Assembly (NCBI GenBank): GCA_009761415.1
Contig: QUOL01000021.1
Coordinates: 186,001 to 250,000, forward strand
Direction of reading: 5' to 3'
From: Sarcomyxa edulis
Taxonomy: Eukaryota; Basidiomycota; Agaricomycetes; Agaricales; Mycenaceae
Length of the DNA stretch: 64,000 nt
Shown: piece after piece, positions 237 to 16,693 of the stretch
How the letters are laid out: each line of letters opens with the position of its first letter
How positions within the stretch are numbered: the first letter of the stretch is position 1
Program-made: the position numbers and the translations under genes
Notes under the pieces: model-generated
Told to the model about the DNA's origin: nothing
What the model saw: only the letters and a program-made list of their open reading frames with translations
Database searches by the model: none

Positions 237-2473
237 ATGTTCGAGGGTGATACACCACCAGAAGACAAGCACCATCCTTCATTCAACAGATTTTTCATCA
301 CCGGGGACTTCACGAATGACCTCGAAGACTTGCCTTTACCTCAACTCAAAGTCGTGACTGGCGATGATTCTGGGGACAATTCAGCGCGTACACGCCGGAG
401 GACAGTCCATTCGAGTAGTATACCAGGGTGTAACCAGGATGGCCTCGCCGTTTCACCAGCAGCAATGTTTTTGTCTTCGTTTAGTGCCCCAGGCCCTTCG
501 TATGCCACTGCCCCCCTGGAACCCGATGGGGAAGGTGCTCTCGTCGCAGGATACACTCTGGGTCCCATAATAGGCTATGGAGGCTTCTCAACCATAAGAA
601 AAGCCTCGTCTTCATCTGGAGGTACAGTTGCCGTCAAAATCGTACGGCGCAAAGATATCTCCAGGCAACCGCACCCCAACCTCGCACGAAAACACCTCGA
701 CCATGAAGCCGCTGTCTGGTCTACTCTCAGCCATGAGCACATCTTGCCGCTCTTCCACTCCGTTCATACTCTTTACGCCGATTTCTTCGTCACTCTCTTT
801 TGCCCCGCTGGTTCTCTGTTTGATATCCTCAAGAGAGACGGTCGGCCGGCGCTGCCACAGGACGATGCGGGTATGATGTTTAGACAGGTGGTCAGAGGGC
901 TGAGGTACTTGCACGAGGTCGCGCTGTTGGTCCATAGGGACATCAAACTAGAAAATATCCTCGTCGATGAAACCGGTGTGTGCAGAATTGGTGATTTTGG
1001 CATGACCAGGAGAATTGGTGAATCAGACACTGGTGAACAAGACACTGAACATGAACAAGCCGTGAAAGGATCGGCTCTTCCTGTTCATCTGTCCATGATT
1101 CGTCATCAGAGCGCACGGCATCGCAATTCTTCACCATTTCCCGAGACGTCGGCTTCTTCACAATCATCATCTGCTTCTACTCACGTATTCAGACCAGGAT
1201 CCCTTCCTTATGCTTCGCCAGAACTGCTTCTGGCTAGTTCAGTCCCACCTCACCCGGCTCAAGATATGTGGGCATTGGGAGTTCTGCTCTACACATTACT
1301 GACCGGACGATTGCCATTCACAGACGCGTTCGAGCCACGTCTGCAAATGAAGATTTTACATGGTAGGTTTATACTCATAAAGTTAACTCAGAAAGTTGAC
1401 TCACTGAACGTCATGCTGTCGGCCATTCAGGTGTTTATGAAATGCCTCCCGGTATCGGACGCGGTGCAGAACGCCTTCTTCAAGGATGCCTCGATCGATC
1501 TGTTGTGAGTCGCTGGACTATTGCTATGGTCGATGAGGTCGCCTGGAGCGTTGGCTGGGGTGCAGAAGGTGACGATGCTACGCCTACACCACCACCTGAG
1601 AAGGATGTGTCCCATCCTCACCATGCCGAAAATATTCCCATACCACCAAGCCGTGACTGGGATCAAGAGGGACCGGGTTCAAGGCCGTCGTTGAAGACAG
1701 CCAGACGTCGATCATCGTCCCGAATCCAGCGTTCTACATCCAGATCGCCTGTCGTCATCCGCTCGGCGCTCTCAGGGAGGAATGGGTCCAGTCGCAGTAT
1801 CTCACGCCCTGGACCCTCCTTCTCTGCTTTCAACGCATCCATTCTGCACTCATCATCACCCTCATCATCACCTGCATCTAGTACTTTCCTCGACTCGGCG
1901 CTGAGGACATCACCCTCACCGCCAACGTCACTCGAACGCGAACGTGGACGCCGCCCACGAAAGTCGTACCAGGTCCAGTCAACCTCGCGTTCTCCCAGCC
2001 CTAGCGTTGTTCCCACCACGCCAATAGACGTGAGTCACCGTGGACGTGGTCATCTACCTATAAACATGGTAGTTGATAACCCTGATGATATCCGACGTGG
2101 ACGACAGCCCTTCGGACGTGGGATATATGGGGTTGACGTGGACGTGGATATGGGATTGCATGAGGATGAGGACGTTCCAGAGATCAGTCTGAATTCGGCA
2201 GACGATCATGAGGTCAAATGCAGCAGGCGAGCAATGTCTTCTAGTCGGTCGTGTACGAGAAACTTAAATGCGAAAGAAGCTGAAGAGGATGGTAGTTTGG
2301 TGAGATGGAGGGAACGGCAAGGACGTGAGCTGCCTTTGGGAAGGAGGGCAGGGAGTACACCCTCTTGGTCAAATGGAGGGCTGTTGAGGTTTGAGGAGGT
2401 CGCTGAAGAGAATGCTGTTCCTACTTCGAAGACAGTGAAGGGTTCCAGGCGGAATAGGAGTGCGGTGGGTTAA
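237..2473 (+). CDS. Ser/Thr protein kinase (CAMK-like) with long disordered tail
   Basis: Two exons (237-1362 and 1431-2473) joined by a 68 bp GT-AG intron give about 722 residues. The kinase domain spans roughly residues 105-415. All catalytic landmarks are present: glycine loop GYGGFSTI (about 113-120), the AxK lysine in VAVK (134), HRDIKLEN (233-240), DFG (253-255) and an SPE in place of APE (327-329). The intron falls just after TGRLPF and its removal restores the C-lobe, ending in the conserved arginine segment. An insert of about 70 Ser/His-rich residues separates DFG from SPE, so the activation loop is unusually long. The roughly 300-residue tail is rich in Ser, Arg and Pro and looks disordered. 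I place it among fungal CAMK-like regulatory kinases but cannot name an orthologue or substrate. Start chosen at the first ATG of the frame. Confidence 0.85.
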
Positions 2474-2734
2474 GGTCAGCGTCGTGAGGTCGCTCGTTCG
2501 TCTTTTTTCGTCTCTTTGAGATTGCCCATACCCAGATTTGTTGTACTGTTATCTTTGGCTCATTCTTCCAGGTTGCATGATGTTATCTATCTCTGGGATC
2601 ACCAAACGTTTCATATATTTTCTATCTTATTCCTGTATCATACATACCCCTCCTCTCAATATTTCAAGTTGTATCATTACAGTGACAATTATCGATTATA
2701 GTACATGGAGAATTACATCGGAAGGACTAGTCAC

Positions 2735-4173
2735 CTATGTTGTGATGCCCTCCATCATCGAGTCCGACGTCTCGAAAGCCGCTCTCTGTTCTGCAGATAA
2801 TTCGTCTGCTATTGACCGCGCAGATTGTCGTTCGGCAGCACGGGCATTCAGTGCATCGACCTCCCCTACGAGTTTTGCCTGTGGCATTGGTCAGCAGTGA
2901 GTCGTCCTACAGTAGACAATGAACTTACAGCCTTTGCTTCCAAGTCAGCTTTATTGAATATCGAGTACGGCGAAGGACGAGTTGGCGCTTTTTTGGGACC
3001 TAAAAGTACATGATGAATATTGCCACACCATGCGAAGGTAGGATGGACGCACCAAATGCGGCGTATCTGAATACTTCATTCATCAGGTCATGATTTCGTT
3101 TGTAACGGCTTGATGCGAGTGTTCTAGTGGATATGTGTTCGGTCTCATCTGCAGAGTCGTTCATTAGCGGAGCAGTTGACTTTGTTGCGAAAGAAAGTTG
3201 CTCACCAGCTGAATCGTCTTCTTCGACCCTGGTCGGACGCTAGTACGCATATATTTCGTCAGCACGGAGAAAGGCGAAGCATTATAAGCCAACGTACTGG
3301 AACTGAACTCCCGCTCCTCTCCCTTGCGCGCTCCCTTTCTCTTCTCCTCTCCAGCGTCTCCATTGCAGCGTTCTGATGTGCCACCATCCCTTGCGGATTG
3401 AACGGCATACCCTGTGGAACTACAGCCCCTCCACCGTGCATTGGTGGCACAGGCGGGCCCTGTGGTCCGGTATAGACCTTTTGTCCCGCTTTCTCACCCG
3501 CAACGTAGATAGAGGGTTCTGTTATATTCCGTAGAGGATATGCACGCGCGGGGGTGTTCATAAGGGCTGGTAAGATCGCTGTTTGCCCATGTTCGTCAGC
3601 TGCACATTCTTTAAGACAGGGTACAGGTGTTGCTCACGGGCGGCTGGGCCTCGGGTGTAATGCACGAGAACGAGTTGAGGGTGTCCGCCTTTGTGTAGAC
3701 GGAATCGGCGACGTAGACGCCATGCACTAGTGTCAGATGAGCCTGGAATGAACCCGTGTTTGATTTCTGTTACTTCTAGTTCCTGCGTTCATCCTTGAAT
3801 GTGCCATAACACTAAAAAATGACTGAGAACTCACCCGGTTGCTCCCACACGGTATCGAGAATCTCTGCTCGTGATCCTGATAGAGTATACCATCGAGAGG
3901 AAAAGAAGATTGTTGAGGCATATAGAGTAGAAAGACCTGGCCCTCTTCATAAAGCATCAGTCTTAACCATCTACGCGTACTGTTGCAAAACTAACCTAAC
4001 GGTTTGTCTATGAAACTCCAAGCATAAGGTGTCTGATGAGACAGAGGAACGGCGCGAGATAACATGGCCACGGCGCCGTCATAATTAAGGCTTTGGTGTA
4101 TCCCAAGATTATCTGGGTATCGTAAACAGAGCCCTTCCGCTTGGGCATCTCGCAAGTTAGTCATTTTGATCAT
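2735..4173 (-). CDS. ssr4: SWI/SNF and RSC complex subunit Ssr4-like
   Basis: Eight exons on the minus strand assemble with consistent phases: 4173-3996, 3944-3835, 3782-3638, 3578-3298, 3239-3206, 3148-3053, 2999-2929 and 2878-2735, giving 352 residues. The N-terminal half carries the fungal Ssr4/DUF1750 pattern: AEGLCLRYPDNLG, then YAWSFIDKP, FPLDGILYQD and an arginine-rich WRLRRRFRL followed by HPQLVLVHYTRGP. The C-terminal half has the family's RYKRNHDLMNEVF helix. In fission yeast Ssr4 is a subunit of the SWI/SNF and RSC nucleosome remodellers in the nucleus. The middle is Pro/Gly-rich with a charged ERRRERERARERS run. An in-frame stop lies upstream of the first ATG; a second ATG three codons in (4164) is an alternative start. 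The identification rests on remembered family motifs rather than a search. Confidence 0.75.
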
Positions 4174-4475
4174 GCCTACGATAGTTCCGAGTCTTTATGA
4201 TGGTCTTCCAGCCGATTTCGACGATTTCAGGGTGCAAGTTGGTCTTTTGGATTTCTGAAGTTGATGGTTTGAGAAGAGGTCAAAATTTGTTGAGTTCGGC
4301 GCTAAATTTGGAACAGCCACTGAGTTTCACGACTTGCTTCTTCCCCTCATCATCGTAAGGAGTCATTCTCAATTTTCAGTTAGTTTTATCACTGATTTAT
4401 ACGCCCTAACATTGTACGAAAGGCACTGGACTCCAACAGTAATCCACTGACGCCGCAGACAGTCCCGAATACACA

Positions 4476-5589
4476 ATGTCTGACATTCTCTCCTTGGACG
4501 TTCTTCTGCTCATCTTGGAACACGTCCACCGTTCAGACCTCCCAGCTCTATGCAGGTTGAACAAGACAGTGTATCCACATTGCCGATATGTTCTTTATCG
4601 CGACGTTGAGGTCTCTGGCGCTAACGTGATGCAGGCGTGCACAACGCTGTATCAAACACCGGCACTGACTGAAAAGGTGCACCGATTCTCCTTATGCGAA
4701 GGGCGGAGTATTGGTTTGGTCCAAATCATATTTGGACTTCTCTGTGATCTACTCTTGATGATGCCCAATCTACGCATCCTGTCTCTCCATATTGGGCCCC
4801 ACGGCTCCTGGATCCTTCCCCCACCAAATACAGTCCCATTTAGACTTATCTCGTTCAGCACTGGATTCAGTTATCACGGAGATCTAGTTCAATTTTTGCA
4901 TGGGCAGACCGAGCTCCGGACATTGTCATTGCCAGCATGGCCCGAAGGCTACCGTGCTTGGTTCACGAGTAAATCGCTCCCGAATCTCACCAAAATATTT
5001 GCACCTCTATCATTAATCCAAGAACTAATTCCTGACCGTCCCATCAACGATATATCTATGAAGTCCATATTGTCTATGTCTGACTCCACAGACCTGGATT
5101 GCTTTGCGAAATCTGCAGCCCAGAGGGGTGTAACCAGGCTGAAAATCGAACAGTCTGTGCTGGAGTCAGTTGGGGCTGAACATCTATCAACTATCATCCC
5201 TCACCTCGTTGATCTCACGGTTGTATGCTCGACATCTCCCTTTGAACGGAAAGAGGTAAGCTTCAATCCACTCAATGCATCACTTCGCTCATGACTACAA
5301 CTGAGAATAGGACGTAGAAGTCATGTCAGAATGGATCTCGGAAATTCTGTCTGTCTTCCTGTGTCTCGAATACCTCACCGTATATTTGGATCCTCATACA
5401 GGCGTATGGCGTATTGATACCACTAAAATCGACTTTCGTCCCTTGATCACACCTACTGTTGAACGCGCTCCGCGTTTCCGTCAATTGTCGATCAAGTTCA
5501 TTGGGGCATCTCACCAGGACTACGCTTGGGTCATGGATGAAAAGGAGTGGGTGTATCTGGGAACTCCCTTAGCATTGATCAATTCCTAA
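4476..5589 (+). CDS. F-box-like / leucine-rich protein
   Basis: Exons 4476-5255 and 5311-5589 (55 bp intron, phase 0) encode about 352 residues. The N-terminus has the degenerate F-box pattern of mushroom proteins (LSLDVLLLILEHV, then LPALCRLNKTVYPHCRYVLY). Irregular leucine-rich segments follow (LRILSLHIG, LRTLSLPAWP, LVDLTVV, LEYLTVYLD). Proteins of this sort are very numerous in Agaricomycetes and are presumed SCF substrate adaptors, but none of that is shown here. It has the same architecture as the gene at 47462-48713 yet is clearly diverged from it. No signal peptide or membrane segment is seen. A specific function cannot be given. Confidence 0.7.
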
Positions 5590-5886
5590 AAACTCTGGTA
5601 TGATGAACTGTATGCATCGAGAATACGTTACTTATAGCACCGGACACTAGACATGAATCCACCATCTTTGTAATATCTACGTGCGCACGAAGTGATATGC
5701 TTCAGACACGTCTGGGCTTTACCTTTCTGGGAAGTTGTATTGGTCGTATTGGTTGTATTCGGCGTACGAATGTGAGCATCGCCGTCCGGACGGGCGTCTT
5801 CTTATGTAAACTTTGTTTGACAGGTTCACACATTCTGAGAACAGCCCGTTCGATAAGCGCCCGTGTGCCCTTTCCTCCCCACCGCT

Positions 5887-8800
5887 ATGTCAAACAGGAG
5901 ATATCCAAGATACCCTAGGCCACTCGATGTTCCCAATGCAATTGCTTATCTAGAAAATGTCAAGTCAACGTATTCGGGGGATCCAGAGACATATCTGCGA
6001 TTCCTTTCTCTTGTGCTCGACTGGCGTAATGATGGGTCCGTAACTTATTATGTGTCCATCATATCTATCGTATAAAGAGCTCATCATCTTGACAGTATCG
6101 ATACCGCCGATCTCGTCGAAAAGATCGCAGCATTCTTCCAGCACAAGTCCGGTCTTTTGCGAAACTTCAATGCTCTACTGACTACTAGTGGTTACCGAAT
6201 TGAATGTTCGACCGATCAAGACGAAGTTCAATTATTCACTCTAATCACTCCTGACGGAGCGGAGATTCATGCTATCTCTGAATCAACTCCAGCCCCCCCA
6301 GACCCTTGTGTCAGCAATACGAAGGAGCTGCTAGATACTCTACGAAGCGATCATGGATGGGACAAAATCACTCATTTCAGATCAACATGGGCAAGCTGCG
6401 TTCTACAGTTGTTGCAAACAGTAAGTACTTGTATGACTCTATCAGATATGCCAATCCACCCGTTGTTATAGGCCCTTGATGATGAAGATCTCAACGAGGA
6501 CGACAGAAAGACGTGCTTGAGAGGTCTACGGACACTTGCTCAAGAATCTGGGAATTTACCGCCGTCGTTCCTTTTGCGCAATATTGCTAAGGTCGGAAAC
6601 TACGCGGTCAAGGGCGGAGGATTCGCTGTGAGTGTTCAATGACTGCTTATCACAATCACTCTCTGACTTTTCAGATAGGATATTTATGAGGGACGCATAA
6701 ACGAACGGACCGTGTGCTGCAAGGTCTTACGGGTGCATACTGCTGTGACAGATAGTCTGAAGGAAAAGCTCATTCAAGTGAGACTTCCCTCGTCATCTCA
6801 GCCTCCCGTGATCTACGTTCTCACATCAAGCAGCAATTTAGCCAAGAGGCGCTCATGTGGAGACAGCTTCAAAATCCATTCGTTTTGCCCTTCTATGGTG
6901 TTAGCAAGGACCTGTTTGCCCCGCATCCTAGTTTTTGCCTCATCTCACCCTGGATGGCTAATGGCAACATAATGGATTATCTAGAGAAAAATCCGGACCA
7001 CGATCGATTGAACGCGGTAACATATACTTATATCCTGGGCTTCATCCTAACGGCTCATTTGTTCGTATCAGATCGTGGAGGTTGCTCAAGGCCTACGATA
7101 TCTGCATGGTCTCAGTCCAAAGATCGTGCATGGTGATATCAAGGGAGTGAGTTTCACAGACCGGCAGTTGCTGCAACTCTCCTCTTCTAGCGAAATCTCA
7201 TTTTTCTCTGCTAGGCGAACGTGTTGGTGACCGACCAACTCACTTGCGTTTTGGGAGATTTCGGCCTTGCTTCTATTGTCGAGTCTCGACTCGCAAATAC
7301 TTCTATGGGGAGCAAAGGAACGATGCCTTGGATGGCACCTGAGCTCATCGACCACGACTTGATGGAGCGCGATCTTTGTCGAGATTGCGATTCTCAGATA
7401 AAGACTGCTCGCGATATCTATGCATTCGCATGCACCATGTACGAGGTAAGTTATCTGTACTTCCAGTCCGAGTTGTGATTATTTTTCTCATCATCGTTCG
7501 AAGATCCTTACGGGTTCACGGCCGTTTCCTGACTTGCATGAGATGGCCGTTGGACTGACTGTTATCACTGGCACGCGTCCAGGACGACCTTCACCGACGA
7601 TATATTATCCTGACGATATATGGTCATTGACCGAGTCTTGTTGGGCTCAGAATCCCCGCGATCGATCAAAGATCGACGAAGTTACGGAGGCTCTGCAAAA
7701 GATTTCGGATGCAAGAAATTGGTCTTCTGAGTCAGGTGCTACACTAGAATCCATAGGACCGAGACGTGATGCGATCCCTTCTCCTTCCCTTCATTCGGTG
7801 AACGAGCTACTTGTTACGAGCTGGTTAGAAGAAGAAGTAGGGATCCTCAGACCGGCGATTACCGAGAGAGCAGCGTCTCCAGAGTCCATCATCCCTTCCC
7901 CTACTCAATCACAAGTTCATATGGTCTACTCCGACCCGGGCTCGGTGTTGCCCGATAACCGTCCTGACGTGTCAACTGGGCTGGGAACTCTCGGTAGGTT
8001 GAGTATAGGGAGCTACTCAACTACCTTCGCCACAGATACGGAAGACCCTTCGCTATTCATACGATCGACTAGTGGCTCTACGAGTACTAGGCCAATGATA
8101 CGGACGCGAGATCATAGATCGTTGACCTCGCGTGCGACCAGTTTTACTAGCATTTCACCGCGAGATGTTAGTCGTAGCAGATCTCATACTTTTGACGAAA
8201 AAGATCATGACGGGTTTTATGGCACGTCGAAAGAGGTGAACGACATGCCGGTGAGGCCAACTCCCCTCGATTACGTGGCTGAAGATTTGAAGGCCATGGA
8301 GCCAAGTCCATTCCAATTTCGGCCGCGGGCACTAGCGTCGATGTTGGATCCTAAGAACCTCGATGTTCTACAAGGTTTGGGAGGGACACAAGGACTACTG
8401 GATGGACTAGGGACAAATCTCTCCCAAGGACTCTGTGCCATGGCAGACGATGGTTCCGTGTTCTCTGCATCGTTGGAATTGAGGAGACATATTTATGGAA
8501 AGAATTGTCTTCCTCTCAATAATCTCTCGAGTTTCTGGTGGTTGGTTTTCCAAGCTCTCGAGGATAAAGTCACGGTATGCCTTCAGCTTTGCTGCGATCG
8601 ATGAAACTCTGCTGATGTGCGTTTGTAGATATTGCTCACAATGACTGCGATTGTTTCTTTGACAGTGGGCTTGTACGAAAAATCACATCCTACTTTGTCA
8701 AGCAGCCCACCTCCTGTCAACTGGGTGGAAGGTGTTGCCATCATCGTTGCTATATTGTTCATTGTGAGTATTGCTTGTTGCGGGTATCTCTGCTTCTGAT

Positions 8801-11800
8801 TGACTTACGCTGATAGGTTGTTATGGGGGCAATAAATGATTTCCGAAACCAAGCCACAACTCAAGTTTTGGAGCGAGAACTCGAAGGTCGGACTGTCAAG
8901 GTGAGACGGGATGGCGTTGAGGTGATTGTGGACGTCAAGGTGCGTTCTTGAACAAATCGGCAATTCTTTCCCGTACTGGCCATGACACATGACGTAGGAT
9001 GTCGTTGTGGGTGATATCGGTTTTTTGGAATCAGGGGAGATCGTGCCTTGCGATGCTGTCTATCTTGAAGGACGAGATGTTGTATGCGATGAGCACTCCG
9101 TCACTGGGCAATCGGATCTCATCAGAAAGATTCCATATCAGCAATGCATTCTACTACGGAACGACAACGTCCTCCAATCCAATACAGATTGCTTTCTTCT
9201 AAGTGGCACAAAGGTACTACATGGATTCGGTGTATATGTCGTTGTTGCTGTGGGGGTCTGTAGCTTCAATGGGAGGATCAAGACAGGTACGCCTCCCTTT
9301 CTTTTCTCTTGTGACCAGGCTCGAGTAATCATCACTTTTATGTGGTATAGCCCTTGGCAGAGGTGGTACCTCTACTCGTCTTCAACTGAAGCTCAATAAT
9401 GTGACCGAAACGGTGACGAAATGGGGGACTTCAAGTGTCTTGCTGTTTTTACTCGCATCAATGATCAAATTTTTCGTCGAACTAGGGACAGAATATAAAA
9501 CATGGCTAGTAATGTTAACTTGTTCACTATGCGCCTGTTTTTACTGTTAAGTCTGTAGGGATCCTGTCAGGAAAGGGTCGACCTTTGTCGAGATTTTCCT
9601 GACTACAATCACCTTACTTTTCGTCGCAGTTCCGCAAGGTTCGTTGGTCGTGCGATTATGATCATAATGTGCATTGCTACATCATATATCCATAGGACTG
9701 CCACTCCTTGTAGCGGTGGTACTTTCGTTTGCCACCAAACGCATGATGCACGAAGGACTCCTCGCCCGATCGTTTGCATCATGTGAGAGAGTCGCAGCCA
9801 CCACGACAGTGTGTGTATCCAAGACGGGAATTCTGACCCAAAACAAGATGACCGTCGTTGCGGGGTGTATAGGTATCGACACTAAATTCATTGTCGGAAA
9901 TGATGGTTCTGTAGAGCCTTCGTTCCCTGACGTCACTTCCCATCCTCTCCCAATGCATCCTCCAGGCGGTCTCTATCGCGATCAATCATACTTCGATATC
10001 ATCTCTCCCCACCTTTGGCACCTATTCCACACGTGCATCGCTGTAAATTCCAGCGTACAGGGGGAGCATGATGGAGATATTTTAAGTGGTAGTCAAACCG
10101 AAACTGCATTGTTGAAATTTGTGCATCGTCTTTGGGCCGATGCGAAAACCTACACTTCATACGACATCATTCAATTGGTGCCGTTTTCGACCAATACCAA
10201 GACTATCGGCGCTGTCGTACAGATGGGTCCGGGGAGATGGCGGCTTTATCTGAGAGGCGCTGGTGAACTATTGGCCACAAGTTGTGTCCGCTCTCTGGTG
10301 GATGTGAAAGAGTCCGGAGATATTGTGACCAAGGCGTTGGGACTCGCGGAACATGCTCGCATCTCACAGCTCATTTCTGCCTACGCCAACCAAGGCTTAC
10401 GAACTGTTTCTCTTTCCTACAAAGATTTTGCGGCCTGGCCTCCGGAAGGCGCAGAGATGAATGGGTCCAAGGTAGGATCACACTAATTTGAGTGTTGGCG
10501 CCGCTCATCCATACTGTTTTAGGTGTCATTCAAAGATCTTTGTCGAGATCTCACTCTGATTGGCATCCTTGGCATCAACGATCCTCTTGACAAGAGTATC
10601 CCCGATTTTGTCCAAAAGTGCGCCATGGCCGGCGTTATGGTCAGACTGTGCACCGGTGAACATCCTGTTGCTGCTCGGTCAGTAGCTTTGGAGAGCGGAA
10701 TCTTTACTCCTGGTGGACTTGTCATGGAAGGTTCAACGTTCCGTCGCCTCAAACCCCAGGACATCATACAAGTGGTACCTCGTCTCCAGGTCCTCGCACG
10801 CGCAACTCCTGAGGACAAGACATTACTCCTACGTACGCTTGCGTCCCTCGGGGAGAGCGTAAGTATCACCGGACATCGTATGAATGATGCTCCTGCACTT
10901 GAAAGAGCCAACATCGGGTTTTCTTTTGAGAGTGCAAGCACCGGGATAGCAAAGGAAGCTTCCAATATCATCGTACAAAATGACAATGTCACTTCCATCA
11001 TCAAATCCATCGCTTGGGGCCGTTGTGCCCGAGATTCTGTCTCCAAAATCCTGCAATTTCAACTTTCTACCAGTATTGCTATCATTATTATCACAACTAT
11101 TTCTTCTCTGGCTTCCAAGTCGGCTTCGTCTGGACCTTCCGTCGTGCAACTCGTGTGGATCAGTATAATCATGGACGTCTTTGCCGTTCTTGCCTTAGGC
11201 ACAGATCAAGCTTCCGAAGCATTTTTGGATCGCAAACCACCGAGAAGGAAGGACCCCTTGATCTCGGTGAAGATATACAAGCAAATTTTGTTCCAGTCCA
11301 CTTACCAAATTACCGCCACTTTGATGCTTTATTTTGGAGGTTGGAAAATCCTGGATGTGTCTGCTTCAGACACAGAACAGCGCAGTTCAATCATTAAAAC
11401 TACTGCCTTCAACACATTCGTCTTCATGCAAATATTCAATCTGTTCAATTGCAGAAGAATCGACGGAAAGTTCAACATCTTTGAGGGTATTCACCAGAAT
11501 CAGTGTTTCATCATAGTCGTTCTTATTGGTGCGTTATTAACTGCCCATGTCTTTACCGTTTGTCTAATGCACCTGTAGAGATAATTGTACAAATCATTGT
11601 CATTTTCTTCGGTGGAATCGTCTTTAAGGTCACGCGCATAGGGGGGCTGGAATGGGGGATCACCGTTACTCTGGGATTTGTTTCCATTCCCCTTGGCAGC
11701 CTGGTTCGGTTCATGCCTGACGATCCGTTTCAAAAACTTTTCCAAAAACTTGGTCTGCTCAGGGATCCAGACATACTTCCAACCGTTCATCCAGACTCTG

Positions 11801-11991
11801 AGAAGAACTCACTCGTAGCGCTTGATAATCTTCGAACGTTTGCTGTTGTACGTGGAGGCCGCGTTCGGTCCTCACCTCATGTCACCAGGAGTCGGGCAGA
11901 ACACCTCGATGATGACGATTTCCCGTGCGTTCAGCCATCACATGCATGTATAGATTTTGACGGACTGGCCGGGAAAATCACAGGTTTCTAA
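5887..11991 (+). CDS. PAH - TKL kinase - P2B-type (pseudo)ATPase fusion
   Basis: About sixteen exons give one reading frame of roughly 1,755 residues. Residues about 12-85 are a Sin3-type paired amphipathic helix (AIAYLENVK, YLRFLSLVLDW, IDTADLVEKIAAFF, GYRIEC). Residues about 200-478 are a TKL-type kinase: GGGFADIYEG (206-215), Lys225, HGDIKGANVL (324-333), DFG (344-346), MAPEL. After a Ser/Thr-rich linker of about 190 residues comes a complete P2B calcium-ATPase fold (from about 670) with ten membrane segments, ending LGSLVRFMPDDPF. A single exon, 7504-8574, runs unbroken from the kinase C-lobe through the linker into the ATPase N-terminus (FQFRPRALASMLDPKNL). Catalytic residues of the ATPase are replaced (see findings). 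The junction near 9508-9558 needs an unusually short intron. A terminal intron from 11923 could alter the last residues. RNA evidence is needed to exclude two overlapping transcripts. Confidence 0.8.
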
Positions 11992-12205
11992 TGTCTTCGA
12001 TCGACCCGGCATCATTTCAGCATTCTAGTGCCTCTCGTGGACTCAAGTCAACGCAAGTGCACCCAGATACAGTCTCAGACGATCCGATACGCAGCTGGTT
12101 TCCGACGCGCACTTGACTTTCGATTCTACTTGACTATGACTGTCCTAACACCGACTCAGACATCAATACAATGGTACTTATACCTTAGCTATCCATCTCG
12201 TTGTC

Positions 12206-13730
12206 ACCCTCTTGGATCAAATGTGTTCCCAATTTGCGTATGTTTTGCTTTCTCGGGGCTGTACAACAAATACTAACACTGCTGTGATACTTACTCTACT
12301 GATTTCGACTTACTTCGACCAGCCACATCGATATCTCGGGTTAGATGATTGACACCCGTCATAAACGTATGGGTGCCTCTAGAACTTACATGGAGTATCT
12401 CCTCTAGCTCTAACACATTCATATTCATGTGGAAGTGCCTTCTATGTACTTTTGAAGATCTATTGTGCTTTTTGGGAGACTTTCTACGGGCAACTATCGT
12501 GGGATGTTATGATCCAGTTCGACCTGGACAGTCACCAAGTCGGTGCAAGGTTTGTGTCATGTCCCTTCTCGGTACATGTACAATCACTGACATCTCTCCA
12601 GGTTCTGCTTCCAAGTTGATACACGAGCGTCACGGTCTGATGTATGGAAGACGATGGTCCCTCGATCAGAGAAGTAAGCAAGAAGTAAGCGCACTGTGAA
12701 GCACGAAATCGGTCTTGGATCTTGGTCGTTCAAGATCGTCTCAACCATCTAGGTGGAGAAGCGCCCGGAAGAATGAGATGGATCATATATCGAGTCTTTC
12801 TCGTCAACCACTAGCCTCGCAACTTCTCTTACATGCTGCCATCCCAGTGATTCATGAACAGACATCTCTCTGCAACATTGCCATGTACATTAGGAGCTGT
12901 CTCTGTTCCCCGTCGCAGCCCGACTACTGCCACTGGCGTCTTCGTTGCACAACTCCGGACGCTTGAAAGCAGCATTAGTAGCGCTCCCATCCAACGAAAA
13001 TATATGTCAGTCCAGTCTCTAATCTATGTTTTCCTTTAAGATTGACAAATTTCATCTATCTCAATATTTAGCTTACAGGATTCTGAAATTTTCCGCCATC
13101 GGTCTAGCATCGGTATCTGCTTCGAGACAGAACTTTGGGAGTCAGACGACAGTTCAGAAGCTGATTTTTTCTCGCAATGTCAGTGCGAGCAGCTGATGAC
13201 CGGCAAGTCCAAGAATTCACAGTATGCAGTACAAATCGGCTTTTTTCTAGATGTATCCGGCGCCCACTCACATGTTCGTCGACAGATTCTACCCACATTC
13301 GAGCCACATGCCACTGATTCCCTTCCAGGATTCACATATCTATAGCCGGATCTATGTCGTATCCCGTTACACGGCTCAGCTCAGAGCGATGGTCGGACAC
13401 GCATGTAACGCAGGCAGTGTGTCCCCGACTTGTTAGCCTGGAGTGATTTGCCGGTCTTCGATGTCTGGTGGCCATACTGCGTAGCCGATCTTCTTCCGAG
13501 TGGATCGAATAAACCAACGGTAGGAAAATCACTATACTCTGTGTACTCGAAGTCCAAAGTGAGACCTACTATTTTCCTATATACACAGGCCAATCCACTG
13601 GCTGATACTCGAGTAGTTTTGGCACACAGTGACGGGTGTCAGAACACGGCAACCTGCTCTTGATCCTAGAAGAAAGACTCGGAGCTTAGCCTATCTATGC
13701 ACCCACCAAGGGTTCCGACTTTCCACCGAC
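12206..13730 (+). repeat. 1.52 kb repeat, left copy of inverted pair
   Basis: This segment recurs at 29241-30762 in the opposite orientation. It starts at ACCCTCTTGGATCAAATGTG and ends at GGTTCCGACTTTCCACCGAC; outside these limits the copies diverge abruptly. The two copies differ by scattered substitutions and a few short indels. Short open frames are shared by both copies (12349-12699 and 13430-13663 here), but no recognisable transposase, reverse transcriptase or other domain was found. No terminal inverted repeats and no target-site duplication were evident by eye. It is probably a mobile-element-derived or segmental repeat of unknown class. Confidence 0.8.
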
Positions 13731-13927
13731 CAGCAGTGGTCTCACAGCGATGAGGCTCAGGCATCGGGAGCGAAGCGACCTCGAGCCTTTATTGAATTGG
13801 ACTGTACCGCCCCTGTGAACAGGCACACAATTTACAGAATAAATTCAAGAAACCATTTGGAAACCATCAACAAATGACACTGTATATACTAATCAGTACA
13901 GCTATTTCATCTTCCTTGTCCAGAATA

Positions 13928-16693
13928 TCATGGGAGCGCTAAGAAGAGGGGCATCAACTTGGTGAGGTTGGGTGTGCCGACACCTGCATGAGAGTGAGTA
14001 AGTATTTCTTTCTATGTAGATGATCGGACTGTACCTGTCACAGGATCCCAGCCAGTCGTCCTGCGAGAATGCATCAGACATCAGTCTCGTCAGAGATAGG
14101 GAGCTACTTACGCAGTGAATCCAGCAGTTCCTGGATTATAATACAATTATTGACTCAAGGTAGCCATAGTTAGGAAGCATATGCTGCTCACCGCAACCTT
14201 GGTTTCCGCCAGTCACGATATCATTGAAAGCTGTTGCGAACGCAGGAGAATAGATTGCAGGGTTGATGAATCCTGATGATCCCACCAAGAATGAGAAGAA
14301 GGGCTAGGAGTGCGATTAAAACCGCTCAAACGGCGCACCGACTGGACCCTTGCCTGCGGCAATTCGGGCATCGTTGACCAAAGTAATCAAGGACCCAACA
14401 ACTGGGGAAGACGCGGAGGTACCGAACACTAGCTCAAATTCTCCATCGATTCCAATAACGTAGTTGGCGCTTTACTGGGATAAGAATCATATAGGCAGTC
14501 AACGAGACCGATTTAGCGCACCCGTTGGCAGACAGATCTGGATAGCCTCGGACCTGTATAGTATGATGAGACATGTACGTGTATAGCAGGAGTCATGGTG
14601 CTTACGGTTCCACTATTATTGAATTGAGCTGCGGTATATGGAGGAGGATGGGATGTCAAGAAATTGCTGACTGCTCCAGCTTGATAAGAAGGCATAGCGA
14701 ATATCTGGGATATACGATCAGCTTAACTTGTATCGTAAGATCAAGAAAGTGTGTCAGTACGCACATTCGAAAAACCTCCACCACTAAAAATGACCTGCTC
14801 GCATGCCCCTTCAGGATCGTTAACAGTAGACCCTGGGTTAACTTGGGTAGCTCCGACTGAAGTGACGAAAGGGCAAGTTGAAGGGAATTCAGGATTAAAT
14901 CTCGTTCCACGACCAGATTCTGAGCCTGAGGCGGTCAAACAAGCACCACCATTTCCAGCTACACCGTCATCGCCCGAGCTGTAGAAGATAGACGTTCCCA
15001 TCATCCCCAACTTCCCGTACTCGTTGCACTGTCTCGCAGCAGATGCAGCGGTGATGGTCACCTCGTCTTGACTGTAGGAAACCGAAACAGCATTTGGCGG
15101 GGCAACAATTCCGCAGGACTCGGGGCCTGTGAAGATGGAAGGAGTGATCAATGACGGTTTTAGATATCGTGAGGGTTTCTTACCTTTGAAGCCTCCAGGA
15201 GCAGGATCTGGGTATATTCCGTCCTAGGTACGCATGATGAGCGATACAGGTTTCTTTGATATGGACTCAGACAGTACCTGATCAGGATCATCACCTCCCT
15301 CGAATGTGCAGAACGATCCATCGACTGCATCTCTAGAAACCGATTAAAATGTGTGTGAATCTCTCTTATGATCATAAATCTCACAGCCAATTATCAAATC
15401 CGGCACCTGTCGAGGCGGTCCTTTTGATGAATCAAGGAAAAAATGACAACAAGAACAAAATATTCACCTTCAACATCGTCACCAGTTTGAAGAAGGATTA
15501 TAGGCTGAGGGTTTGTGAGACCCATGGCATACTCGAGGTCGAGGTCACTTTCTCCGTTGAAGTCGAAACTTTGGTCGCTCGTCTGAACAATGGCTGATGA
15601 CAGCACAGATAAGTGAACGTTGATGGCATGCAGGACATTATGTTGTAACTAACCTCCATCAATGAGGACGTTTGTAGGCCTCACACCAACAAGATTGGGG
15701 GTGAAGTTCCTGCATTACGAATTAGCTAGATGACCACGAAAAGGGAAGACTTCATGGCGAACGTAAAGAACAGATCTAGGTCGCCAGCCAAAAAGGCCTG
15801 GGGAGTAAATTCCACTAGAAGGTTTCGGGTATATATATATCGGTATAATGATCAAACGACCAAAACACAATGCCACACACCGATTCCGTAACTGTTCTTC
15901 GCCGTAGAGACAGGTGTATAATCCACAGAGTAAAGAGCACGAAGGCAATCCAGAGTGATCTGGGAGTCACAATTATCTAGACTGGGAGTGATGGTGACCT
16001 TCTTGCCATTCGTCTTCGGACCATTCCTAGAAGAGGGTACTCCAAGCCCTCCAAAACGCTTGTGCAGAGGATTCGTAGTCACTCGGTGGTTGAATTGGAC
16101 TGTTGGCTTGATGAGGTCGATGTGTTCACGGATGTGCATGGGAACGGAATAGGAGTGGCAACCTGTGGAATGGATACTAGGATCAGCAGTCAAAACGAAT
16201 GGGAAGAGAAGGGTGCTTCACCAAATTGAGTGGCCCCAGATGGATGACTGTAAACATGATATTCCGTATCCAGCAGGTCCTCCACTTCGGCAGTGGTGGC
16301 ATTGACCTCGATCCACCCTTTGCTCTGCGTAAGTCTCAAACGATCGACGGAGATACCAGCTCCAACCAGCCATTCCTTAACAGCAGTAATGGTTTCGTCA
16401 CTCGGAGCGAATGTCTCCACCACCTTCGCAGGTGAATAATGTTGTCCGTAGGTAGGAGATTCGGGGTGAGAAACGGCCATCAGCATTTCTTCAAGCTTGT
16501 CCAAATTCTGCTGAGTGAGTCCGAAACGCATTGGTAGAACTTTATCGGAGGGGAGTCGACTAGATTTGACCCAATCGACGGGCTCCATAGCACGCTTCTC
16601 GTGTACGACATGGTTGGCGCGAGGAGACTTGGATGGAGCAGCGATAGCCACCCCGATGAGAGTCGTCACTACAAAGGGGAATACGAGACGCAT
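13928..16693 (-). CDS. Sedolisin-family (S53) tripeptidyl peptidase, secreted
   Basis: The gene is heavily spliced on the minus strand. The first exon (16693 to about 16220) begins with a signal peptide (LVFPFVVTTLIGVAIAAP) and a pro-kumamolisin activation domain (MRFGLTQQNLDKLEEML, SPTYGQHYS). The mature region keeps the sedolisin catalytic set: Glu and Asp in GESDLDLEYAM (about 15540), the oxyanion Asp in YSSGDDGVAG (about 14970) and the catalytic Ser in FGTSASSPVV (about 14410). The calcium site FNDIVTGGNQGC (about 14230) and the terminal GWDPVTGVGTPNL are also present. These enzymes release tripeptides from protein N-termini at acid pH outside the cell. The stop codon is at 13928, about 200 bp from the left repeat copy. 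Internal exon limits were only partly traced, but no break was seen. Confidence 0.88.

Follow-up and report, generated by a model that had tools for sequence, protein, structure and literature searches.

An Agaricomycete gene that apparently joins a Sin3-like helical domain, a seemingly functional TKL kinase and a whole inactive calcium pump

The window, by which we mean the whole stretch of 64,000 nucleotides of Sarcomyxa edulis DNA that was analysed, belongs to a genome of 35.6 Mb in 40 contigs. On its plus strand, at 5887..11991, lies a gene of 16 exons whose predicted product of 1758 amino acids carries a Sin3 PAH1-like domain, a TKL kinase, a linker and a dead P2B ATPase, as delineated from splicing, Pfam and intron positions. 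In our splicing model a single open frame of 1758 codons runs from ATG 5887 to TAA 11991 across 15 introns of 45-68 nt. The choice between acceptors 6830 and 6833 alters one residue only; donor 9514 with acceptor 9558 keeps the frame, and the intron so defined coincides with an intron of plasma-membrane Ca2+-ATPase (PMCA) genes, while the alternative acceptor 9570, read from the sequence, would likewise keep the frame with four residues fewer. Pfam placed the domains in the order PAH, TKL-type kinase (PK_Tyr_Ser-Thr, residues 206-471) and then four Ca2+-ATPase domains, namely Cation_ATPase_N (700-774), E1-E2_ATPase (831-1046), Cation_ATPase (1148-1224) and Cation_ATPase_C (1493-1666). The hydrolase model PF00702, present in all the best 120 of 3397 PMCA relatives, was absent from the Pfam matches of the window protein. 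An earlier note on this DNA had placed a PAH domain, a TKL kinase and a P2B ATPase in one reading frame, and this was borne out by the splicing into 1758 codons, by Pfam and by homology; one gene thus apparently unites a whole inactive calcium pump with a kinase that seems functional and a helical domain like that of Sin3. An assembly artefact was considered and dropped, the joint sitting within an exon and no N being seen at 4500-14500. Just upstream, on the same strand, open frames at 4443-5589 gave a weak F-box match below the cut-off, and part of another protein kinase gene, also on this strand, lies at 576-1010.

The Sin3 PAH1-like domain and its flank span residues 11-118 (5917..6300, plus strand), within which Pfam PAH covers residues 34-78, from 5986, at 23.9 bits against a cut-off of 21.3. 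Since this score alone is weak, the identity was settled by comparison with Sin3: the N-terminus of the window protein matched the Sin3-like gene of the same genome on contig C11 with an E value of 4e-13, through RPLxV and GYRIECSTD, and the intron at 6036-6095 lies about where that gene also breaks. The Sin3-like gene itself (L058, G000:C11:364000-372500) is followed some 5.5 kb on by a second, partial Sin3-like stretch. The nearest paralogue of the window gene, on contig C9, has the same PAH-like start, but its Pfam PAH score stays below the cut-off; none of 20 relatives gave a Pfam PAH match, and seven relatives compared with the Sin3 piece gave z values from -0.7 to 5.9. A nuclear helix on a membrane pump had been called a paradox. 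The N-terminus is truly Sin3 PAH1-like, but the paradox is weakened, since the nearest paralogue also has this start: the PAH-like part came with the kinase and is uninformative on where the pump resides. The kinase domain follows at residues 206-471 (6613..7695, plus strand; Pfam and catalytic residues). Its glycine loop occupies residues 206-215, and Lys225 (6721), helix-C Glu249 (6846), the HGD Asp327 (7135), the DFG Asp345 (7257) and APE at 371-373 are all in place. HGD in place of HRD is usual in this kinase family, the consensus of 20 members being HGDIRGANVLV. Judged by these residues, the window kinase is apparently a TKL kinase with an intact catalytic set and is predicted to be active.

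The P2B ATPase body and tail, full-length and catalytically degenerate, take up residues 700-1758 (8380..11991, plus strand), as judged from Pfam, the PMCA alignment and solved relatives. Its fold is complete by homology, as the earlier note had stated, but its active site is not, key catalytic residues being changed; and the ten membrane segments claimed there rest on homology, because by hydropathy the window protein shows 9 peaks against 10 in the normal PMCA of the genome. When aligned with 120 PMCAs (the alignment omitted P0195), the plus-strand codons of the window pump show the Glu of TGES replaced by Gln at residue 888 (TGQS, 9109..9111; Glu in 120/120), the Glu of PEGL, in the M4 part of the Ca2+ site, by Gln at 1027 (PQGL, 9635..9637), the phosphorylated Asp of DKTGT by Ser at 1069 (SKTGI, 9818..9820; Asp in 117 PMCAs, Glu in 2, a gap in 1), the Lys of KGA by Arg at 1214 (10253..10255), the Arg of DPxR by Asp at 1309 (10589..10591), the Asp of TGDN by Glu at 1332 (10658..10660), the first Asp-Gly of TGDGTND, constant in 120/120, by His-Arg at 1404-1405 (TGHRMND, 10874..10879), and the M6 Asn of the Ca2+ site by Ser at 1500 (11162..11164). 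Nine key positions are therefore altered, seven of them invariant in 120/120 PMCAs, with R1309 found in 119 and D1069 in 117. Residues that are kept include, in TGDGTND, the second Asp and, in M6, Asp1504, the latter being the sole survivor of the Ca2+ site trio (PEGL Glu, M6 Asn, M6 Asp). The altered residues have established roles in SERCA and PMCA. By these replacements the pump is judged catalytically dead, a point that the earlier note overlooked. Among the PMCA relatives, P0095 and P0135 from Mycena have Glu aligned at the phosphorylated Asp and may be further inactive paralogues.

The changes extend well beyond these motifs. Among positions that are near-invariant (at least 98% alike in the 120 PMCAs), 148 of 456 are changed in the window pump, against a median of 1 and a largest value of 15 in the other 120 PMCAs. 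By region, the changed positions amount to 13/35 in M1-M2, 11/46 in the actuator domain, 21/55 in M3-M4, 70/183 in residues 1047-1440, 16/39 in residues 1441-1500, 13/70 in residues 1501-1690 (M6 to M10) and 1/11 in the tail, so that better conservation is confined to the actuator domain, the tail and the final membrane helices. The changes do not clearly concentrate on the key residues, and the early membrane helices are altered as much as the catalytic domains. Because about one third of the near-invariant positions have changed and the early helices are hit equally, the change may represent a general release from pump function. One could argue that the product is instead a regulator of the real PMCA, in which the pseudo-pump pairs or competes with PMCA and the kinase phosphorylates PMCA or its partners; residues 1501-1690 and the C-terminal tail (the RGGRVRSS region) are indeed among the best-kept parts and the genome does possess a normal PMCA, but conservation in membrane helices one to five does not exceed that in the catalytic domains and we know of no P2B pump that needs partners of its own kind, so we regard this explanation as unlikely.

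As to ancestry, the best solved relatives of the pump part are P2B pumps, with PMCA1 (6a69) at the top (E 8.2e-137). Furthermore, all eight introns of the pump part match introns of the normal PMCA gene on contig C10, which has nine, in both column and phase (the exon model of this gene was fitted to the relative P0082), which implies that the pump was captured as intron-bearing DNA. From these homologies, the pump part is a P2B Ca2+-ATPase by descent. The normal PMCA of the genome groups among Agaricomycetes PMCAs, sharing 78% identity with its Plicaturopsis crispa counterpart; it serves here as comparison sequence and not as an identified direct donor. In the PMCA tree the window pump sat on an end branch of 10 changes per column and its placement failed, and rare shared residues tied it to no particular PMCA, suggesting that either the capture is older or the tie is masked by the changes of the pump itself.

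The window pump and the normal PMCA differ at 37, 26 and 65% of first, second and third codon positions over 1018 codons, with 50.6% residue identity, figures that include the constraint on the normal PMCA. When substitution drift of the normal pump was simulated to 62% identity, an end point chosen by the analyst in a model without indels, a mean of 16 stops arose, with at least 7 in 200 of 200 runs, against 0 in the window. The same genome also holds a decayed PMCA copy (L050, G000:C27:52500-62400), taken as internal control, with stops within the matched sequence; its DNA is 80% identical to the C10 gene over one matched stretch, and within the 9.9-kb stretch no match was found past residue 872 of 1537. 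It may be argued that the window gene is likewise a decaying chimera, in which the fusion did happen and is now without selection. The loss of nine key residues and of about one third of the near-invariant positions, as well as the presence of a decayed PMCA copy elsewhere in the genome, speak for this; the 1758 codons without stop or frame break, the 15 usable introns, the excess of differences at third codon positions, the stops that accumulated in every drift run and the intact kinase residues speak against it, and we hold it to be quite unlikely.

The kinase and the pump meet within the exon at 7504..8574 (plus strand; splicing and homology), which encodes the kinase C-lobe, the junction, an N-terminal extension of PMCA type and the first part of Cation_ATPase_N. 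As the earlier note had it, this exon reads through 357 codons without a stop from the kinase C-lobe to the ATPase N-terminus, and it is the homology of the linker that is decisive. Homology to kinases ends at residue 471 by Pfam and 482 by the C9 paralogue, while residues 535-717 align with the N-terminal extension of the normal PMCA on C10 (E 2.7e-16); a multiple alignment, which carries no statistic, puts the PMCA-like start near residue 519. A stop-free gap of some 36-52 residues is thus left between the two homologies. On the plus strand, the junction zone, taken from the end of kinase homology to the start of PMCA homology, comprises residues 483-534 (7729..7884), in a frame without Met, and the former N-terminal cytosolic extension of PMCA, placed by homology and alignment, comprises residues 535-699 (7885..8379). 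No in-frame Met occurs from residue 421 to 547, and pump-derived sequence therefore starts 5' of the first Met usable by a separate pump. From base composition the chance of 357 stop-free codons is about 1.7e-8, and that of the 171 codons at 7737-8250 is 2e-4; stop-free stretches of 171 codons were actually seen in 15 of 521 placements at 12500-63000. Over 7737-8250 the frame of the gene is the only one without stops and outscores the other five in codon usage. Its score of 0.031 per codon is nevertheless exceeded by at least one of 292 other stretches, whose mean is -0.118, SD 0.08 and maximum 0.13, and codon usage by itself does not decide the matter. A single GTRNGY donor (7994) was found in 7700-8300, for which the nearest CAG acceptor, 8035, preserves the frame and CAG 8141 does not; a possible intron 7994-8035 could thus be removed without frame break. 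Five of the eight acceptors listed for this donor would truncate the kinase, and truncated kinase forms are accordingly possible. That two adjacent genes, one for a PAH-kinase and one for a degenerate PMCA, are read as one through a chance open frame is very improbable. In its favour, a separate pump could begin at any of the in-frame Met codons 7921, 8095 and 8245, most of the listed acceptors end the kinase early and stop-free stretches of this length do occur elsewhere in the window; against it, PMCA-derived sequence in the kinase frame is already present before Met 547, where such a pump could first start, the one donor has its nearest acceptor in frame, and two other kinases of the family, P0216 and the C9 paralogue, also run into other modules.

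The C9 gene groups as sister to the window kinase, being 53% identical to it and supported by 97 and 96 in two trees; the identity of P0219 is slightly higher (54% over 261 columns). At the C9 locus (L051, G000:C9:96500-106400, 1629-4813 on the minus strand) the PAH-like kinase runs in frame into a RhoGEF-related region, a single frame of 568 codons leading from the kinase C-lobe into this extra region. A search of the genome matched this region elsewhere only to a RhoGEF gene on C36, at 36% identity, and Pfam and PDB sequence searches gave it no name; we take it to be BAR-like, as in fungal DH-BAR proteins. Among public relatives, non-kinase domains were found in 15 of the 35 top rows of at least 967 aa and in 17 of the best 120 of 281 in a wider listing, the kinase-like models ABC1, RIO1, APH and TCAD9 being set aside in the count. 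Their modules include SH3, VHS, ENTH, ARID, G-alpha, PBD, RA and dsrm as well as homeodomain, bZIP, Zn2Cys6, C2H2, RRM, GRAM/VASt and DUF6699, and in the 22 of 32 module-bearing relatives that were mapped they lie variously N- or C-terminal to the kinase; these relatives are automatic gene models, and some of the joins may be merged neighbour genes. In the kinase tree, built on 56 of 156 rows (the 34 best-scoring plus module-bearing ones, with P0016, P0028 and P0034 left out by hand), at least 28 changes of module label are required, a number that is not a rate. Taken from these domain assignments, it is one kinase family with many different extra domains on scattered branches. We also surveyed other kinases of the same genome at 14 loci on the plus strand only (6 without match) and at 7 loci on both strands (one being the Sin3-like gene), and the more distant kinases among them showed no clear added module by eye. 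One relative, P0026 from Gymnopus androsaceus (2060 aa), has adenylate cyclase-like RA, LRR and PP2C domains followed by a TKL kinase at 1806-2059, the cyclase catalytic domain not being listed.

A second joining to a pump was noticed in P0216 from Armillaria borealis (752 aa), where a kinase of the same family leads into an N-terminal extension of PMCA type and the membrane segments that open the pump; read from the sequence of this automatic gene model, the protein stops shortly beyond membrane segment two. The pump part shares 85.6% identity with the PMCA of Armillaria fumosa over 374 positions, with 33 rare residues in common, and the kinase of P0216 clusters with Armillaria and Desarmillaria kinases on another branch than the window kinase. 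A clade of the two fused kinases, named for testing after the data had been seen, was rejected (lnL difference 83, p-AU 2e-62). By these relationships P0216 is an independent joining of a family kinase to the PMCA of its own lineage. It resembles the window gene in combining a family kinase with the PMCA N-terminal extension, and differs in having only the first part of the pump. The earlier note knew of no described protein with this order of domains, and indeed the full order was found in none of the relatives listed, but P0216 does join the kinase to the first part of a PMCA. Pump domains were absent from the Pfam domains listed for 81 relatives, some of these lists being cut short, no kinase domain was found among the best 120 of 3397 PMCA relatives, and P0216 was the one kinase relative with a PMCA part among the best 120 of 281 listed. 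To our knowledge no kinase-P2B pump fusion is known, and a search of the literature covering mostly titles and abstract openings, with few subscription papers and no preprints, found neither a kinase/P-type ATPase fusion nor module capture by these kinases.

The locus thus presents a single frame, homologies to three kinds of protein, introns in common with PMCA, loss of pump residues with kinase residues retained, and a frame intact despite long divergence. We consider it rather probable, from the sequence, that this is one real gene that arose by fusion and encodes a kinase tethered to a membrane, for which the pseudo-pump would serve as a docking or bait module. A module-swapping Agaricomycete TKL kinase gene, with the PAH1-like N-terminus already present, would have been joined in frame to a plasma-membrane Ca2+-ATPase gene, a duplicate that carried introns, at the part encoding its N-terminal extension. 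Residues for phosphorylation, dephosphorylation and the handling of Mg2+/ATP have been lost from the pump, along with some of its Ca2+ site. The fusion protein, if made, would probably sit in the membrane that PMCA occupies with its kinase on the cytosolic side, and the pseudo-pump, without transport, may act as an anchor and as a docking, sensing or bait surface which offers PMCA-like surfaces to partners, ligands or attackers; binding at the pseudo-pump or at the PAH-like part might switch the kinase. A membrane-tethered kinase with the ATPase as sensor or scaffold had already been suggested in the earlier note; because the pump is catalytically dead, this fits better than could be seen then, and the function we propose is inferred. 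If expressed, such a protein would be a kinase hard-wired to a non-transporting transporter fold, in effect a receptor-like membrane protein built from a pump. A kinase family with SH3, VHS, ENTH, G-alpha, homeodomain, bZIP, RRM, RhoGEF-derived and pump modules would further offer a testable system for the origin of signalling chimeras, and a possible route to fungal self-defence receptors by capture of duplicated genes.

Among known systems, the alveolate guanylate cyclase/P4-ATPase fusions (TgATPaseP-GC, PfGCalpha, PfGCbeta) similarly hold a P-type ATPase and a signalling enzyme in one chain, but there a P4-type module precedes the cyclase, whereas in the window a P2B pump follows a TKL kinase, in a fungus. 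In PfGCalpha the conserved Asp is required (PMC7858053), whereas the window pump lacks that Asp; the ATPase part of PfGCbeta is described as degenerate. Membership of the window gene in the alveolate group was rejected, as Pfam gave no cyclase domain and the best solved relatives are P2B pumps. The TRPM6/7 channel-kinases are a further parallel. TKL kinases are unusually numerous in Laccaria bicolor and belong to the same broad kinase group as that of the window, and the accessible text of that report does not mention a pump fusion (PMC2838846). In Triticeae kinase fusion proteins (Sr43, Pm4, Lr9 and others) an apparently working kinase is coupled either to another kinase, which is often non-functional, or to a different domain, Pm4 being a kinase fused to a C2 domain with a multi-membrane region, and an integrated-decoy model is proposed for them (PMC10260397). 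At the level of sequence the window gene likewise combines a degenerate duplicate of a cell protein with a kinase whose residues are intact; the Triticeae fusions, however, are plant resistance genes, whereas the window gene is a fungal gene known from its sequence, with a whole transporter as module. By analogy with the integrated-decoy model (PMC10260397), we propose that the pseudo-pump could be read as bait. A wider scheme, which is possible though doubtful, would give mushroom-forming fungi a whole set of domain-integrating kinases, resembling the plant immune kinases and NLR proteins that contain integrated decoys: the PAH-like/TKL core would repeatedly capture duplicates (PMCA at least twice), let their activity lapse and use them as bait, the window gene being the membrane-pump member. 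In the G-alpha part of P0021, outside the window, the switch region reads NIGGS against DVGGQ in G-alpha-13, and the ARRPT motif is AYLPT; these alterations may count as one point in favour of bait.
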